Shown here in pieces: positions 34,560 to 41,515 of a stretch of 55,751 bases of DNA. The stretch lies in the NCBI RefSeq assembly GCF_014697195.1, contig NZ_JACJRJ010000043.1, positions 1 through 55,751 on the forward strand. The letters run 5' to 3'. A program made the translations under genes and the position numbers. This stretch comes from Cylindrospermum sp. FACHB-282 (GTDB taxonomy: Bacteria; Cyanobacteriota; Cyanobacteriia; Cyanobacteriales; Nostocaceae). Below the pieces are notes generated by a model, which did no database searches, was not told the origin of the DNA, and saw only the letters and a list, made by a program, of their open reading frames with translations. The first letter of the stretch is position 1, and each line of letters opens with the position of its first letter.

Positions 34560-34722
34560 TATGATTTTTGTCACCATCTCAAGGTGGATTTGTCTCCACC
34601 GATAGGTTTTTGATTATCTTCCACAAGAAGTGCCTTTAGTTTGTACCCACAGGCAGAAAGCAACTGTGTGTGCAAAAGCTAAATTAAAGTTAAGCACCAA
34701 CAAGTTGTTAAAGACCAAAAAA

Positions 34723-34923
34723 ATGGAAACTCGCTCTACAACTAATTTGCCAGTTGCCACAGAATATAACGGCAGAGATCGCAATGAATTTTTGTTTGGC
34801 TCAACTCCCCAAGCCGAACTCTGGAACGGTCGTTTGGCAATGATTGGCTTTCTGGCTTATTTACTTTGGGACTTAGCTGGCTATAGTGTCCTGCGGGACG
34901 TGTTGCACCTGATTGGCTACTAA
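34723..34923 (+). CDS. High-light-inducible protein (Hli/Scp), first copy
   Basis: A 66-residue one-helix chlorophyll-binding protein of the thylakoid membrane. The CAB motif AELWNGRLAMIGFLAYLLWDL has the chlorophyll-binding Glu, Asn and Arg. Hli proteins quench excess energy and help chlorophyll recycling under light stress. The ATG at 34723 is preferred over an upstream in-frame start at 34630, whose basic extension is atypical. It is followed at once by a second copy. Confidence 0.93.
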   Translation: METRSTTNLPVATEYNGRDRNEFLFGSTPQAELWNGRLAMIGFLAYLLWDLAGYSVLRDVLHLIGY

Positions 34924-34964: not shown

Positions 34965-35168
34965 ATGGAAACTCGCTCTTCTACCGATTTACCACCTGTT
35001 GCTAAAGCCTACAATGGTATAGATCGGAACGCCTTTATTTTTGGCTGGAATCCCCAAGCTGAATTGTGGAACGGTCGCTTGGCAATGATTGGCTTCATAG
35101 CCTACTTACTTTGGGATTTACTAGGGTATAGTGTCCTACGTGACGTGTTGCACTTCATCAGATATTAG
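34965..35168 (+). CDS. High-light-inducible protein (Hli/Scp), second copy
   Basis: A 67-residue Hli protein, a tandem duplicate of the gene ending 41 bases upstream. It shares METRS at the start, AELWNGRLAMIGF in the helix and GYSVLRDVLH at the end. Chlorophyll-binding residues are conserved. The two are probably one transcript, ending at the hairpin at 35226-35256. Confidence 0.93.
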   Translation: METRSSTDLPPVAKAYNGIDRNAFIFGWNPQAELWNGRLAMIGFIAYLLWDLLGYSVLRDVLHFIRY

Positions 35169-35307: not shown

Positions 35308-35952
35308 TTATTCATCAATAGCGCTGGGAATACCCAAGACAGCGCAGGGGAAATTAGCCCCTAATCTCTCAATCATCGAATGATTAACAGATTTACATCC
35401 TAAAAACAGGATATCCGCAGCTTCTGATTCAACAACTTTTCTAACTTCTGTCGTTATACAGCCAAACCGCAAATGAGATTGGAAGCCACCCTGCCATTCT
35501 TCAGCTAAAGTTCTTGCTTGCCAGAGAATTTTATCAGCTTGTTTGATAGGAGTTAAGGATTCCCGTTGTTGGTGCAGTGCAATTGCTGTTAGTTTTGGCT
35601 GAGTTAAAACTAGTGTTACCGACTTGGAAACATCACTAACAGGACACTCTAATGGCATCTGATTTTTGGACAAGCTGAAGATATCTGGATACTGATTGCT
35701 AGGATTTTGTTCAACTACATAAACGGCTTGAACTGTAACCTGAGCATTGGTAGCTAAACGGGTTTGGTGAGCAATCCAAAAGGCAATATCCAGGGCTGTA
35801 TGACTGTTGGGTGAAGCATCATAGGCAACAATTAAGTTGACTGATTTCGCTTTTGAAGCTCTTTTAGAAAAGGGTTTCTTTGGCTCAGGCAGCAATACCA
35901 TTTGTTCAATTAAGTCATATCGACCTATGGCACTTTGCAAGCGCGCTAACAT
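35308..35952 (-). CDS. Universal stress protein (UspA) family
   Basis: About 214 residues from the ATG at 35952. The Usp fold begins at NLIVAYDASPNSHTALDIA, with a middle block VTVQAVYVVEQ and an end block ADILFLGCKS..MIERLGANFPCAVLGIP that resembles the ATP-binding G..G..S/N motif in changed form. Usp proteins bind ATP or other nucleotides and act in stress responses. Its leader contains a c-di-AMP riboswitch-like element (36119-36246). An upstream TTG at 35985 is less likely as the start. Confidence 0.8.
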   Translation of the reverse strand: MLARLQSAIGRYDLIEQMVLLPEPKKPFSKRASKAKSVNLIVAYDASPNSHTALDIAFWIAHQTRLATNAQVTVQAVYVVEQNPSNQYPDIFSLSKNQMPLECPVSDVSKSVTLVLTQPKLTAIALHQQRESLTPIKQADKILWQARTLAEEWQGGFQSHLRFGCITTEVRKVVESEAADILFLGCKSVNHSMIERLGANFPCAVLGIPSAIDE

Positions 35953-36118
35953 TGGCTTAATTTTCACAGCTTTAACTTCTCTCAATAAAATGAATAACGA
36001 ACGAGAAGTAGGCCAACCAATTTACGATTTTGGATTAAACGAATAAAATCTTAATCTAAAATCTCAAATTGATCAAGGAAACCCCAATAAAAACTGATAT
36101 TACAGCCACTATTTTGGG

Positions 36119-36246
36119 GGTTCCTTCCATTGCCGACGGAGTTAGCTGACGGGCTAAGACTGGAAGGTGTCTCTCATTACGATTAGCCCCATATTTTGGT
36201 TCCTCCGCTTCAAATTTAGATTTGATAAATTTGAATTAGGCTACCC
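36119..36246 (-). promoter_or_regulatory. c-di-AMP riboswitch (ydaO-yuaA class), upstream of the usp gene
   Basis: Read on the minus strand the element has AGCGGAGGAACC, TGGGGC, a variable stem, then TAGCCCGTCAGCTAACT (complement of 36140-36156) and CCGTCGGC. These blocks and their order match the ydaO-yuaA class and the second copy at 39702-39898, with which it shares a 17-nt identical core. It begins about 22 bases after the ATPase stop and ends 166 bases before the usp start. An alternative hairpin AAGGAACCCCC/GGGGTTTCCTT (36075-36126) overlaps its 3' end and could be the switch. Confidence 0.75.
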
Positions 36247-36267
36247 ACATAAAAATGATAATCTATT

Positions 36268-37107
36268 TTACTCGTCTTGAGTAAAATATCGGTCAAGAAA
36301 ATTTAAGGCGTGGTTACGGAGTTCAAAATATTCTTTTGAATTTCGCATGGCACTACGATCACGTGGACGATCAAAAGGAACTTCTAAAATTTCTCCTATG
36401 TTAGCAGCTGGCCCATTGGTCATCAAAACGATGCGATCGGACATATAAATTGCTTCGTCTACATCGTGAGTAATCATCATCACTGCTTGACGATGATTTT
36501 CCCAAATATCCAATACCTGGCGCTGCAATTTAGAACGAGTTAGTGCATCCAGTGCCCCAAAAGGTTCATCCATCAATAACATTTTTGGGCGAATTGCCAA
36601 GGCTCTAGCAATACCCACCCGTTGTTTCATACCTCCAGAAATTTCATCGGGATACTTATCGGCTGCCGCTGTTAAGTTTACCATTGCCAAGTGTTCATTT
36701 ACAAGGCTAACTTTTTCAGCACGACTAGCTTTTTTTAGCACTTCATCTACAGCTAATCGGATATTTTCTCGCACAGTTAACCAAGGTAGCAGCGAATAAT
36801 TCTGAAATACCATCATCCTGTCTGCGCCTGGCTTGCGGATTTCTTTTCCATCTAGCCTTACTGAGCCAGAAGTAGATTTTTCAAAACCGCCAATTATTTT
36901 CAGTAGTGTTGACTTGCCACAGCCAGAGTGACCAATGACAGAAATATACTCATCTTCACTAATCGTCAGATTTACACCATTGAGAACGACAAAATCATCT
37001 TTGTCTGGTGTCGGATATGACTTGATCAAATCTTCAATTTCTAAAAATCCATTACGGGTCGTAACTTCTTGATAAGTATCTTCTGTAAATGAGGTATACT
37101 TCATCAT
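36268..37107 (-). CDS. ABC transporter ATPase, NrtD/SsuB/TauB type
   Basis: A 279-residue ATPase of a nitrate/sulfonate/taurine-type importer. Walker A is GHSGCGKST, the Q-loop is VFQNYSLLPW, the signature is ISGGMKQR, Walker B is MLLMDEPFGALD and the H-loop is THD. The ATG at 37107 has GGAG six bases upstream. It is the third gene after the permease and the binding protein, 50 bases downstream of the latter. It energises uptake at the inner membrane. Confidence 0.92.
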   Translation of the reverse strand: MMKYTSFTEDTYQEVTTRNGFLEIEDLIKSYPTPDKDDFVVLNGVNLTISEDEYISVIGHSGCGKSTLLKIIGGFEKSTSGSVRLDGKEIRKPGADRMMVFQNYSLLPWLTVRENIRLAVDEVLKKASRAEKVSLVNEHLAMVNLTAAADKYPDEISGGMKQRVGIARALAIRPKMLLMDEPFGALDALTRSKLQRQVLDIWENHRQAVMMITHDVDEAIYMSDRIVLMTNGPAANIGEILEVPFDRPRDRSAMRNSKEYFELRNHALNFLDRYFTQDE

Positions 37108-37157
37108 CAAATGCTCCGGAAATAAGTTATTTATTAGTCACTATTGGTACTTAACAC

Positions 37158-38600
37158 TTAAGACATGAAGAAGGGAGTAGGCGCATTAGCCCTGATGGTA
37201 AAACTATTGAGATATCCCACTGGATCACTGGGGTCAAATCCTTTCTTATCGATGAATGCTTCTGGATGTTCGACTTTATAATCATTCTTGGGACACTGAA
37301 TTCCCATTTCAGCGGCTATTTCCCGATATAAATCTGTTCTCCAGCCTTTTTCAGCTACTTCATTGGCATTTTTGGGAACAGTCTTGATCTGTCCCCAGCG
37401 AGCTGCTTGGGTCATCAGCCAGATACTTCTGGATCTCCATAAAAATGTCGAGTGTTCTCCTGGCTCTTGGGCAATGTTGCTAGGTATGTCAAAGAAAATT
37501 GTCGTGTCAGCGGCGTTGATAGTGCGGTCTTTGCCATCGAACCCACCATAGTTGTAATTACCAATAATTCCGGGAGCGGTAAACTTGGTCATGGGTGCGC
37601 CTGGCTTTTTGGGTTTTGCACCGGTAAAGGAGCGGCCTGTAATCAGTTCGGCTACTTCTTGGCGGTTTTCCGGTTTGCTGCAATACTGGCAAGCTTCAAT
37701 CATCGCCTTGACTAGGGAACGATAGGTTTTGGGATAGTTGTCGATGAAAGATTCCATCACCGCTAGCAGTCGATCTGGGTGTCCTTCCCAGACTTCTTTT
37801 CCTTGGGCAAAGGTGAAACCAATACCTTCATTACCTGTAATTGCTCTGGTGTTCCAAGGTTCCGCCACCATGTAAGCTTGCATCGCGTCGATTCTCATGT
37901 TGGTGAGCATTTGCGGTGGAGAAACGATGATCACCCGAAATTCCTTCAAGGGATCGACACCAGCGGCGGCGGCTACGTAGCGGACAAAGTATTCGTAAAT
38001 GGCAGAACTCAGCACTACTGCCCAGATTTTCCGTTCTGGGGGTTGCTTGTCAAAGTAGTTCCGAAAATCCCGCCCAAAGGCTTCCAGCGCTCCATCACCA
38101 TACTTTTGTTGGTATTCGTACCAGGGACGTATGCCAAAATTCCACATATCTTTGTTCATCGTCATGGCGTTACCGTGGCGATGAATTACCATAGCTGCAC
38201 ACAGGGGGGCATGGCGTGCGCCTTCAGCACCTACTCTGGCGTTGGTGACGGCACCGGATACTACAGGTGCAGCATCCAGACGACCAAAAATCAGCCCGTC
38301 GCGGGATGTGGCCCAACTGGCTTCTCGACTGAGTTGGACGTTTAAACCATATTTGCGGAAAAAGCCTTTTTTCCAGGCGATCGCAAATGGCGCACAATCA
38401 TTAACAGGCACATAACCAACACTAATGTTGGGTTTTTCTAAGTCTTGGGGTCTAACTACTGGTTCCACAGCTAAGGCTTGTTCAGTTAGTCCTTTAACAG
38501 ACTTATCTCCTGAAATTCCACAGGAAGAGAGAGCCATTCCCGCTGTCGCTACTCCTATTCCCTGAATAAAATCTCGTCGAGTCCAATTATTTTCATTCAT
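37158..38600 (-). CDS. ABC transporter substrate-binding protein, NrtA/CmpA-like
   Basis: A 480-residue binding protein. It has a twin-arginine start TRRDFIQG (Arg8, Arg9) and a lipobox LSSC (Cys27), so it is probably exported folded and anchored as a lipoprotein. The mature part follows the NrtA/CmpA/SsuA fold (VGYVPVNDCAPFAIAWKKGFF, then SAVVSG-like and PWNTRAI motifs). The nitrate- or bicarbonate-binding residues cannot be confirmed by eye. Its setting under a c-di-AMP riboswitch argues for an osmolyte or other small ligand. 150 bases after the permease. Confidence 0.87.
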   Translation of the reverse strand: MNENNWTRRDFIQGIGVATAGMALSSCGISGDKSVKGLTEQALAVEPVVRPQDLEKPNISVGYVPVNDCAPFAIAWKKGFFRKYGLNVQLSREASWATSRDGLIFGRLDAAPVVSGAVTNARVGAEGARHAPLCAAMVIHRHGNAMTMNKDMWNFGIRPWYEYQQKYGDGALEAFGRDFRNYFDKQPPERKIWAVVLSSAIYEYFVRYVAAAAGVDPLKEFRVIIVSPPQMLTNMRIDAMQAYMVAEPWNTRAITGNEGIGFTFAQGKEVWEGHPDRLLAVMESFIDNYPKTYRSLVKAMIEACQYCSKPENRQEVAELITGRSFTGAKPKKPGAPMTKFTAPGIIGNYNYGGFDGKDRTINAADTTIFFDIPSNIAQEPGEHSTFLWRSRSIWLMTQAARWGQIKTVPKNANEVAEKGWRTDLYREIAAEMGIQCPKNDYKVEHPEAFIDKKGFDPSDPVGYLNSFTIRANAPTPFFMS

Positions 38601-38750
38601 GGTTATAGCTATTGTTTATTGATAAATAGGCTCGCGCCCAATATGGTTCGGATAAGATACCCCACGGGTTGACCCCCTTTTAAAGGAGGCAATTGAAGCA
38701 TATAGCCCCCCAAGCCTTGGAGGGATTATCTTGCCATCAGGCAAATTTTG

Positions 38751-39602
38751 TTAGTTAGAAGTTTTCGGACGGTGGGTAACTAATTCTTCAATTTTCCCCA
38801 CAGCAAAATCCAGAATTAACCCTGTTACGCCAATTATCAACACAGCAAGAAAGACTGAACTAAGATTTAAACGGCTCCATTCATCCCAGACAAAAAAGCC
38901 GATTCCCACACCGCCGGTGAGCATTTCTACGGCGACGATTACCAACCAAGCAATTCCTAAACTAATTCGCAAACCTGTAAAAATATATGGCAAACTCGCT
39001 GGCCAAATAATTTTAGTAATCCGTCGCCAACGGGGCATTTCTAACACCCGTGCCACATCTAAATAATCTTGAGAAACGCTAGAAACTCCCAAAGCAGTAT
39101 TAATAATTGTCGGCCAAAGGGAAGTAATGAAGATCACAAAAATAGCTGAAGGGTCTGCTAAATTGAAAATGGCTAAAGATATCGGCAACCAAGCTAGGGG
39201 CGATACGGGTTTAAAAATCTGAATAATTGGATTGAAAGCTAGCATTGCCTGTCTAGACATACCAATGCAGAATCCCAGGGGAATAGCAACTACTGCACCC
39301 AACAGAAACCCCACCAATACCCGCCGCAAACTTGCTATTAATAACCAACCAATTCCCAAGTCTCCCGGGCCTCGTTCGTAAAACGGGTTTAAAATGTAGT
39401 CCAGATTAGCAATTAGAGCTTCTGGTGGAGTGGGCATTACATCGTGGTTAACAAGTGCTACCACCCACCACAACAAAATTATTCCCAAAAATCCTAAGAC
39501 AGGCAATAAGAAGACATCCCGGAAAATCACAGGTTTTGCCTTTTTCCATGCAAACTGCCCAGCAACCGCCACGATTGCAGCTAAATTTAGTTGAAATACC
39601 AT
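38751..39602 (-). CDS. ABC transporter permease, NrtB/SsuC-like
   Basis: A 283-residue permease with six or so transmembrane helices and the EAA-like loop SVSQDYLDVARVLEMPRW facing the ATPase. First gene of the permease, binding protein, ATPase cluster, and GAGG lies about seven bases before the start. The leader upstream contains a c-di-AMP riboswitch-like element. The 150-base gap that follows contains two GC-rich hairpins made of CCTCC/GGAGG-type dispersed repeats. Confidence 0.9.
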   Translation of the reverse strand: MVFQLNLAAIVAVAGQFAWKKAKPVIFRDVFLLPVLGFLGIILLWWVVALVNHDVMPTPPEALIANLDYILNPFYERGPGDLGIGWLLIASLRRVLVGFLLGAVVAIPLGFCIGMSRQAMLAFNPIIQIFKPVSPLAWLPISLAIFNLADPSAIFVIFITSLWPTIINTALGVSSVSQDYLDVARVLEMPRWRRITKIIWPASLPYIFTGLRISLGIAWLVIVAVEMLTGGVGIGFFVWDEWSRLNLSSVFLAVLIIGVTGLILDFAVGKIEELVTHRPKTSN

Positions 39603-39701
39603 TTACAACCTCAACAGATCTAAGCGCGGGTACAAAAAAGCCTAACAGTACGAGCGTTGGACACTGATGAGATCGGAATATTTAAAAAATACCGTCTCTT
39701 C

Positions 39702-39898
39702 AGTCTCCCCTCAATGCTTACGAAGTTAGCTGACGGGCTAGGGCTGAGAGATGCCCCTCTCTTGAGAATGGTGAGTCTGATACTTCCTAACTCCTCAATC
39801 TTGACTCTTAACTTGCCACTTTCTGAGAGATACGCCCCACACACAATTGGGTTCCTCCGCTCCAGTGCTACGCAATGCACTGGATTAAGCTGACTAAC
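39702..39898 (-). promoter_or_regulatory. c-di-AMP riboswitch (ydaO-yuaA class), upstream of the ABC operon
   Basis: On the minus strand: GTCAGCTTAATC, a stem-loop arm, AGCGGAGGAACCC, TGGGGCGTATCTCTCAGA, a second arm, then GAGGGGCATCTCTCAGCC, TAGCCCGTCAGCTAACT (complement of 39724-39740) and CGTAAGC. The GGAGGAACCC, GUCAGCUAAC..CGUAAGC and pseudo-twofold repeat layout is that of c-di-AMP riboswitches. About 100 bases separate it from the permease start. That space holds a weak hairpin (CCAAC..GTTAGG) and TTTTTT, compatible with an intrinsic terminator. These RNAs usually turn genes off when c-di-AMP binds. Confidence 0.82.
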
Positions 39899-40327
39899 TC
39901 TAAAGATGGATAATAACACACAAACTATAACATTATATAAGCTGTAAAAACATCTGCATCAATGATAATTTTTATTTACTTCAATACCATAACTTAGTAA
40001 TTATTGTAAGTTTTCGGTAATCAGTAAAGGCTATACATCCGGTTGTCCTGTGAGTGAATCTCTAGTCATAGTATAGATACATATACTCTATATACATAGA
40101 GAGCAAGCAAGCATTAAATAAATTTACCTAAGTATGATTTTTAACTATATAATCTGTATTATCTAAGAATACTTAATTCGTGGCTAGTCAGTTCAGCAGG
40201 CTGATCTATAGATACAATCTATTTCGTTCGGTGAAATATCTCAATAGTTTTGGGAGTAAATTCCAGTACTTGCTAAACTAATTACATATACAATCTGATT
40301 CAGATACTACTCAGCAAAGTTAAGATA
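39899..40327. other. Divergent intergenic region, no gene seen
   Basis: 429 bases between the riboswitch leader and the histidine kinase. It is AT-rich and holds the promoters of both directions. The only structure I see is CTCTATATACATAGAG near 40090-40105, a 6-bp perfect stem. No reading frame with coding character. Confidence 0.5.
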
Positions 40328-41515
40328 ATGGATTTTAGTCACCTACTGGCTGAAAAAATTGATACCATTCTAGATAAATGGGTGGTAGCAGTTCGCAAAG
40401 ATCGGCGGATTGAAAGTGCTGATGACCTATCCTACGGCGCGATTAAAGATCACATTCCTGATGTGTTGAAAGCAATGGTCACTGTGCTTTCAACAACTCA
40501 GGGTAATGATATTCGTTCGATAGTGACCGCCAGCTGGGAACATGGAGCTATTCGAGCTATACAAGGCTTTGACCCAGAAGAAATTGCTAGGGAATATCAT
40601 CAGTTACGAATGGTAATATTTGACGCTATTGAAGTAGATTTATTGCAGGGAACACCAACAGAAATCATTCGTGCTACGAGATTGATTAATGCTGTGGTCG
40701 ATGAAGCGATCGCTCTGTGTTTTAATAGTTATGTTAAAGAACGTTTAAGAGAATTAGAGCATCTGCATTCCTCACTGACGCTGCACAATGAGGAACTGAC
40801 TCGCTTAATTAACGCTAATCGAGAGCATCTTTCTTACCTAGCTCATGATTTGAAACATCCTCTATCTTCAATTATTGGTTACTCCGATTTGTTTTTACGG
40901 GAACAACGCAAAAAAGTCGGAGGAAAAGAAAACTATGCCAATGTAGAACATATTGAGCGTGTACTACGCAATGGTAGACACTTACTCCACCTGATCAATG
41001 ATTTACTAGAAATGTCACGTTTTGATACGGGGAAGATCAAACTCGAACTAGTACCGACAGATGTATGTGAATTAATAAATAATGTATATCAAATTTTGGA
41101 GCCTTTAGCCACGGAGAAAAATTTACAAATCGTGGTGGATTGTGTCCGTACTCCCAAACCGATAATCACAGATTCTTTTCAATTACAACAAATTGTTACA
41201 AATCTTGTGAGTAATGCGATTCGCTATACAGAATCGGGAACTATTAAGATAGTATCTCAAGTGTTGGATAATGACAAATGGGCGATCGCAGTTTCTGACA
41301 CCGGCATTGGTATTGTACCAGAAGACCAAGAGCAGATTTTTGAACCCTACTTTCGCGCCAAGTCTTACCTTCCTGACAGCACTGGCTTAGGTTTGGCGAT
41401 AGTTTCGCGATTGGTAAAACTCTTGCAAGGAGAAGTTAAACTGGTGTCTCAGGTGGGGGTTGGTTCTAGTTTCACCGTGATTTTGCCTTTGCAATTGGAG
41501 ATAACCGAAAGTTGA
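40328..41515 (+). CDS. Sensor histidine kinase with RsbRD-like N-terminal domain
   Basis: A 395-residue soluble kinase. Residues 1-145 form an all-helical RsbRD_N-like domain (LAEKIDTILDKWVVAVR start), and a coiled coil links it to HisKA with His173 in LAHDLKHPLS. The HATPase domain has the N box QIVTNLVSNAIRYTES, the G1 box DTGIGI and the G2 box GLGLAIV. No transmembrane segment, so it senses an internal signal. No response regulator lies next to it. Its targets are unknown. Confidence 0.88.
   Translation: MDFSHLLAEKIDTILDKWVVAVRKDRRIESADDLSYGAIKDHIPDVLKAMVTVLSTTQGNDIRSIVTASWEHGAIRAIQGFDPEEIAREYHQLRMVIFDAIEVDLLQGTPTEIIRATRLINAVVDEAIALCFNSYVKERLRELEHLHSSLTLHNEELTRLINANREHLSYLAHDLKHPLSSIIGYSDLFLREQRKKVGGKENYANVEHIERVLRNGRHLLHLINDLLEMSRFDTGKIKLELVPTDVCELINNVYQILEPLATEKNLQIVVDCVRTPKPIITDSFQLQQIVTNLVSNAIRYTESGTIKIVSQVLDNDKWAIAVSDTGIGIVPEDQEQIFEPYFRAKSYLPDSTGLGLAIVSRLVKLLQGEVKLVSQVGVGSSFTVILPLQLEITES

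Follow-up and report, generated by a model that had tools for sequence, protein, structure and literature searches.

The stretch analysed here, hereafter the window, comprises 55,751 bases of Cylindrospermum sp. FACHB-282 (contig NZ_JACJRJ010000043.1, positions 1 to 55,751) and carries on its minus strand a small cluster in which two riboswitches of the cyclic di-AMP (c-di-AMP) class, RF00379 (ydaO/yuaA), stand before the genes of an ATP-binding cassette (ABC) importer and of a universal stress protein (Usp), respectively. The cluster is probably to be read as two neighbouring c-di-AMP modules, in which a leader designated type A controls the importer and a leader designated type B controls usp, both as OFF switches belonging to a regulon for ions and osmotic state. 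The finding is real and makes biological sense, conservation is good, and the cluster adds a well-supported set of targets to a riboswitch class already known; it is not a new kind of switch. What is unusual is the presence in one cluster of two riboswitches of the same class with gene-specific platforms, together with an importer whose ligand is unassigned. No other riboswitch of the class was found in the genome, and in relatives the same genes nearly always stand behind such leaders.

The whole window was scanned with Rfam models using cmscan, with a gathering score of 38 bits for RF00379. Two full-length matches were obtained, the first at 39700-39901 (-) with 68.4 bits (E 8.1e-14) and the second at 36119-36237 (-) with 55.8 bits (E 2.6e-10); in a whole-genome search the second aptamer reached 36119-36251 (-), its score ranging from 55.8 to 56.5 bits. 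The only other result in the window at the gathering threshold was one tRNA, a permissive Rfam rescan of 35900-40300 yielded no additional families at E values up to 1, and in the 6.1 Mb genome as a whole no RF00379 member was found beyond these two. A protein with a diadenylate cyclase domain is also encoded in the genome. Both leaders are assigned by covariance score to the c-di-AMP riboswitch family and would accordingly be expected to bind the ligand. A sequence-only reading of the cluster had proposed ydaO-yuaA leaders at both sites from their features and from an identical 17-nucleotide (nt) core, TAGCCCGTCAGCTAACT; the covariance model bears the proposal out, and the conserved pairing is kept across related genera. 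The core is present as claimed, but it overlaps the Rfam consensus core, so it would be expected of any RF00379 member and does not point to a special kinship of the two leaders.

The gene order given by that reading also holds for the minus-strand genes: riboswitch, permease, binding protein, ATPase, riboswitch, usp. The NrtB-like permease (38751..39602) matches PF00528 and the nitrate importer model TIGR01183 (237.7 over a cut-off of 209.05), and the ATPase of NrtC/D type (36268..37110) matches PF00005 and the nitrate importer model TIGR01184 (370.1 over 291.8). Between them lies the NrtA/CmpA-like substrate-binding protein of NMT1_2 type (37158..38600; PF13379), which carries a twin-arginine translocation (TAT) signal (TIGR01409). 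The second aptamer follows 16 nt after the ATPase stop codon and is followed by usp (35308..35967), which most likely starts at the GTG at 35967, after a GAGAAG sequence, and encodes 219 amino acids, rather than at the TTG of the longest open reading frame (ORF). This start fits with the presence, in 3 of 44 usp orthologs from related genomes (G003, G010, G033), of a stop codon within the stretch matched by the longer form, a stop whose position inside that stretch is not given by the search tool.

RF00379 was present in 177 of the 192 family genomes searched. Its gene partners were followed in a panel of 57 Nostocaceae genomes from 55 genera, including three of the window's genus, for which 110 RF00379 matches were obtained, one of them below the cut-off, under strict filters that may miss weak members; the panel's binding-protein list covers all strong matches. 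There were 36 full-length binding-protein orthologs, with 71 % identity or more, and 2 partial ones, and a riboswitch lay 991-1301 nt upstream on the same strand in 35 of the 36 full-length cases, the exception being G027. All 44 usp orthologs of the panel were located in a riboswitch-led unit: 37 had a riboswitch of their own 79-419 nt upstream, and 7 followed an importer unit with a riboswitch at its head, the importer being degraded in one (G047). The complete order riboswitch-importer-riboswitch-usp was found at 24 of the 44 loci (23 with a binding-protein match, and G002 without one), riboswitch-usp apart from the importer at 13, and riboswitch-importer-usp at 7. Among named loci, taken as the best 80 of 272 binding-protein matches and coming in several cases from genomes that overlap the panel, the first riboswitch was present in 79, the second in 62 and usp in 66, counts that are minima because some loci run into contig edges. 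In a phylum sample of 291 genomes, 42 had the binding protein at E <=1e-120, and 20 of these were outside the window's family. A riboswitch was located 0.9-1.3 kb upstream of the binding protein in 17 of the 20, and in G199, G224 and G251 the riboswitch matches sit on different contigs from the importer; in G062, inside the family, the upstream match scored 29.5 bits, below the cut-off. A usp match was found in 9 of these 21 genomes (the 20 and G062), directly after the importer in four, away from it with its own riboswitch in three, and elsewhere without an adjoining riboswitch in two. On these counts it is the riboswitch-importer arrangement that has the broader distribution; the riboswitch-usp unit forms a second module, found next to it in many of the family's genomes. 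In G001, where no binding-protein ortholog was found, the usp leader stands behind an ATPase gene of the importer type, which suggests that importer genes were lost from a tandem arrangement. Riboswitches followed by importers with missing or short parts were also seen at L064 (G020), L035 (G002) and L102 (G047), and are taken as cluster decay in some lineages.

The leaders fall into two types that follow the gene served. A pseudoknot tail UGAGAG or a near form of it was present in 37 of 37 importer leaders (type A), and UGGAAGG or a near form in 37 of 37 usp leaders (type B); among the named loci, upstream cores were of type A in 76 of 80 (4 unclassed) and downstream cores of type B in 62 of 62. 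Loop and tail agreed at all 6 of 6 positions in 108 leaders out of 109; combinations across types did so in just 76 of 1369 and 5 of 1369 cases, so that the loop-tail pseudoknot of RF00379 is conserved here with compensating change. The type-A pseudoknot of the window (39708..39750, -) is formed by the loop CUCUCA (39745-39750) and the tail UGAGGG (39708-39713), and this helix was 100 % paired in the 37 importer leaders. Its last tail base begins the platform hairpin X:Y (39659..39708, -), in which 97-98 % of the cells of the 37-leader alignment were paired and 4 of 11 pairs were doubly changed. This is followed by a small conserved stem (39630..39651, -), GUAC/GUAC here and GGUAC/GUACC in most relatives, with 95.1 % of cells paired and no doubly changed pair. 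Over the whole type-A structure 98.1 % of cells were paired and 8 pairs were changed on both sides, 4 of them in the X:Y hairpin, a result equalled by 0 of 500 shuffles. The type-B pseudoknot (36123..36167, -; loop CCUUCCA at 36161-36167, tail UGGAAGG at 36123-36129) was 99.2 % paired in the 37 usp leaders. Its platform hairpin, AAGGAACCCCCAA/UUGGGGUUUCCUU (36075..36126, -), is a 12-pair stem with 93.6 % of cells paired (94.6 % for the whole hairpin), and its outer four pairs occupy pseudoknot-tail bases. The two riboswitches thus compare as two adjacent modules, each with its own pseudoknot tail and platform hairpin, and not as one duplicated switch; their derivation as copies of one element was considered and is unsupported, the leader type following the gene and loops and tails mostly mismatching across types. 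The earlier suggestion that two sensors would let the transporter and the Usp be tuned separately stands in part: leader type and platform are specific to each gene, and the modules also occur apart, but a difference in affinity or expression does not follow from this, and control in common is no less likely. In the interval from the type-B hairpin to the start of usp (36009-36074, -), relatives carry varied hairpin-forming or repeat-like stretches of differing length, and G036 has almost nothing there; the interval has the look of a preferred site for the insertion of small palindromic elements.

In the proposed mechanism, c-di-AMP would fix the aptamer and the 3' pseudoknot tail in each leader. 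The tail runs directly into the platform hairpin, with one base shared in type A and four pairs in type B, and because of these shared bases the ligand should weaken the hairpin and release the 3' strand. In type A this released strand would cover the ribosome-binding site of the permease gene, so that control would act there and the importer would go down at high c-di-AMP; type B is assumed to act in the same direction. The available text of PMC6488665 and PMC9337991 describes c-di-AMP riboswitches that turn genes off, and that of PMC9337991 states that, when the ligand is absent, the left shoulder of a terminator can be paired by bases belonging to the aptamer pseudoknot and to P1. Since both these precedents and the pseudoknot-tail logic fit, the importer switch is considered with moderate confidence to be an OFF switch, and the same is assumed for usp. 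Pairing of the X:Y 3' strand with the permease Shine-Dalgarno region (39608..39617, -) was found in 91.8 % of cells, against 35-58 % for slid versions; it is no more than suggestive, because compensatory changes are absent from it and its paired percentage is attained by 149 of 500 shuffles, and this is one of several results that weigh against OFF switching by the proposed route. The covariation of the type-B hairpin is weak (44 of 500 shuffles reach its doubly changed count), and the first leader of the window is no stabler than its own shuffles (z -0.45; the second leader gave z -3.66). Five terminator-like sites were found, all on the plus strand and none on the minus strand. Folding with and without the aptamer was performed for 37 type-A leaders and for 35 of the 37 type-B leaders, G013 and G022 being dropped for lack of the GAGAAG pattern. 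The mean unpaired fraction of the Shine-Dalgarno region was 0.21 in both states for type A (up in 7 and down in 5 of the 37) and 0.12 and 0.07 for type B (up in 2 and down in 8 of the 35), so that no consistent change of exposure was seen on folding and no direction was predicted by it. A possible stem CUUCUC...GAGAAG over the usp Shine-Dalgarno sequence (35976..36008, -), read from the sequence, is left mostly paired by equilibrium folding. A terminator model for the first leader, in which the core GUCAGCUAAC would pair with GUUAGGC ahead of a U-run, was dropped, as relatives do not keep it; a perfect CCGAG/CUCGG stem with a U-run was seen by eye in G010 and G025 only. It is unlikely that either leader, or both, would act as an ON switch in these organisms: the platform hairpins differ between the two genes and folding does not favour OFF, but the c-di-AMP riboswitches in the available text of the two papers cited above switch off, and a type-A hairpin whose base is weakened by the ligand would favour the Shine-Dalgarno pairing. 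An equally doubtful alternative makes the second riboswitch an internal checkpoint on one long transcript, with the switches in series, usp gated twice and the importer once. The 16-nt spacing from the ATPase stop in the window would suit it, as would a spacing of 51 nt or less in 18 of the 23 tandem loci with a binding-protein match; yet the gap is 125-360 nt in the other 5, TATNAT was seen by eye just before the leader in 14 of the 18 close loci, which suggests a promoter, and 13 of the 44 usp orthologs stand, with their leaders, apart from the importer.

The reading of two modules in an osmotic and ion regulon has also to be weighed against the view that the importer is a transporter of nitrate/nitrite, cyanate or bicarbonate, whose control by c-di-AMP would track carbon/nitrogen status and not osmotic state. 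This view is rather unlikely, if somewhat less so than the two alternatives above. In its favour, the NrtB and NrtCD models exceed their cut-offs in the permease and the ATPase, and the binding protein is closest, among solved structures, to the CmpC/NrtC regulatory domains and next to NrtA and CmpA. The AlphaFold model of the binding protein has a mean predicted local distance difference test (pLDDT) score of 37.2, and the pocket argument is therefore made from the sequence alignment. Residue positions were set by a count along each chain, an offset of 29 being applied, at which His196 and Lys269, and also Trp102 and Gln155, land on matching NrtA letters. In CmpA an acidic residue at the Lys269 position belongs to the bicarbonate signature as well. 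The pocket region retains Trp96 and Gly143-Asn144, and has Tyr202 at the position of NrtA His196 and CmpA Gln198, and Arg277 at that of NrtA Lys269; none of these residues varies among 11 orthologs, and a second set of 21 likewise shows no change at Tyr202 or Arg277. The available text of PMC8786288 gives His196 and Lys269 as the nitrate-importer signature of NrtA, and that of PMC11349869 gives Gln198 for the bicarbonate signature of CmpA. The binding protein has Tyr202 and Arg277 in place of the former pair, and, with respect to CmpA, Tyr in place of Gln198 and Arg in place of the acidic residue. With Tyr202 and Arg277 in place of both signatures, the protein is not of the standard type for either nitrate or bicarbonate, and its pocket, which has a basic residue but lacks the CmpA acid, may bind an anion directly. 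The genome's two longer NrtC/CmpC-like frames, located elsewhere, argue further against a nitrate, cyanate or bicarbonate importer, as do the glycosyltransferase and ion carriers that follow riboswitches of this class in relatives. The cluster shares a related binding protein, permease and ATPase with NrtABCD and CmpABCD (BCT1), but it has one ATPase, without a binding-protein-like C-terminal domain, and its pocket residues are not theirs.

The Usp of the cluster matches PF00582 (33.8 over 24 bits). Its structure model is of moderate quality (pLDDT 69.9, with stretch 88-137 poorly modelled) and gave 44 Foldseek matches at E <=0.001, with Usp proteins at the top ranks; a sequence search of solved structures gave nothing up to E 0.1. 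The nucleotide motif of ATP-binding Usp proteins is G-2x-G-9x-G(S/T), and by eye the C-terminal stretch LGCKSVNHSMIERLGANF looks degenerate compared with it. The best fold match was TeaD of Halomonas elongata (PDB 3hgm; E 2.8e-7, template-modelling score 0.45 on the query, 16 % identity), a Usp encoded with the osmotic importer TeaABC and called regulatory in the available text of PMC5231179. A regulatory role is plausible on this ground, and the Usp may adjust a transporter post-translationally. The likeness lies in a Usp encoded with an importer; TeaABC differs in being a tripartite ATP-independent periplasmic (TRAP) transporter for ectoine, whereas the importer here is an ABC system.

Outside the importer and usp classes there were 36 panel riboswitches. 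Sixteen precede a GT4 glycosyltransferase of GGQNVYV type, 4 a 445-residue CitMHS-family carrier, 3 a 433-residue membrane protein, 3 a small protein of 81-100 residues and 2 importer remnants, and 8 were left unsorted by the script, including those before a CPA2 antiporter fused to a Usp domain and before a different Usp. The former stands at L103 (G047; minus strand, 394-2577), where the transporter, a cation antiporter, and the Usp form one protein behind a c-di-AMP riboswitch. The GT4 glycosyltransferase may be a sucrose-phosphate synthase, and no model reaches its cut-off on it; by eye, the leaders of its gene appear to share the type-A platform with the importer leaders. In G010 and G025 (L047, L071) the riboswitches of the GT4 gene and of the importer point away from each other, back to back at 526 and 290 nt, a possible link between the importer and sucrose synthesis. 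A CitMHS-type carrier, presumably an ortholog of slr0753 of Synechocystis, lies downstream of usp on the same strand in 21 of the 44 panel loci (window included; 3 kb fetched), starting within 575 nt in 20 of these, and in 41 of the 80 named loci; many type-B leaders may thus control usp together with this carrier. The window genome has only a distant CitMHS match (26 %, E 6.7e-11), and the genus-mate G028 gave no match to the carrier in a search that returned G074 and G052 at 1e-207. For slr0753, described as a putative chloride carrier, PMC10117731 reports a c-di-AMP riboswitch that has been verified, and this is the one verified riboswitch-controlled gene that its available text names in cyanobacteria. 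The two cases are alike in having a cyanobacterial c-di-AMP riboswitch on a carrier gene and, in relatives of the window, such a carrier after usp; they differ in that the window genome is without a close homologue of the carrier. According to the available text of PMC5986932, c-di-AMP rises under salt and not under sorbitol in Anabaena, and falls under salt and rises under sorbitol in Fremyella.

Few c-di-AMP targets are known in cyanobacteria, and a survey cited in the literature points to osmoprotectant genes. The sequence-only reading had tied c-di-AMP to an uncharacterised NrtA-like importer, and the RF00379 leader and its conservation lend this support. The cluster shares the aptamer, core and loop-tail pairing of its class, and departs from it in its targets, an NrtA-like importer and a stand-alone Usp, and in having two members with gene-specific platforms in one small cluster. 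The tandem Na+ and c-di-AMP riboswitches of Dehalobacter (PMC9337991, in its available text) are similar in that two riboswitches are tied to osmotic genes and bases of the aptamer pseudoknot and P1 enter an alternative pairing; there two ligands gate one gene through one leader, whereas here one ligand class would be sensed twice for different genes. No paper describing this cluster was found in a literature search of titles and the starts of abstracts, and the recurrent pairing points to an undescribed branch of salt and osmotic control. More speculatively, heterocyst-formers and their relatives might have an undescribed c-di-AMP osmotic import system, composed of an ABC importer of NrtA-like type whose substrate would be a new osmolyte or small anion, a Usp of its own that acts on it in the manner of TeaD on TeaABC and, in many species, a CitMHS-type carrier, with the amounts of importer and regulator set through two separate riboswitches with different platforms. 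The cluster offers a concrete gene set, and a binding-protein pocket, for asking what c-di-AMP does in filamentous cyanobacteria.

Two further features border the cluster. Convergent with usp are two similar small tandem ORFs, at 34630-34923 (+) and 34965-35168 (+), which we take to resemble high-light-inducible (HLIP) proteins. Divergent from the first riboswitch is a histidine kinase with an RsbRD_N domain (40328-41515, +), a homologue of which was present in 26 of 96 fetched loci, mostly upstream and divergent.

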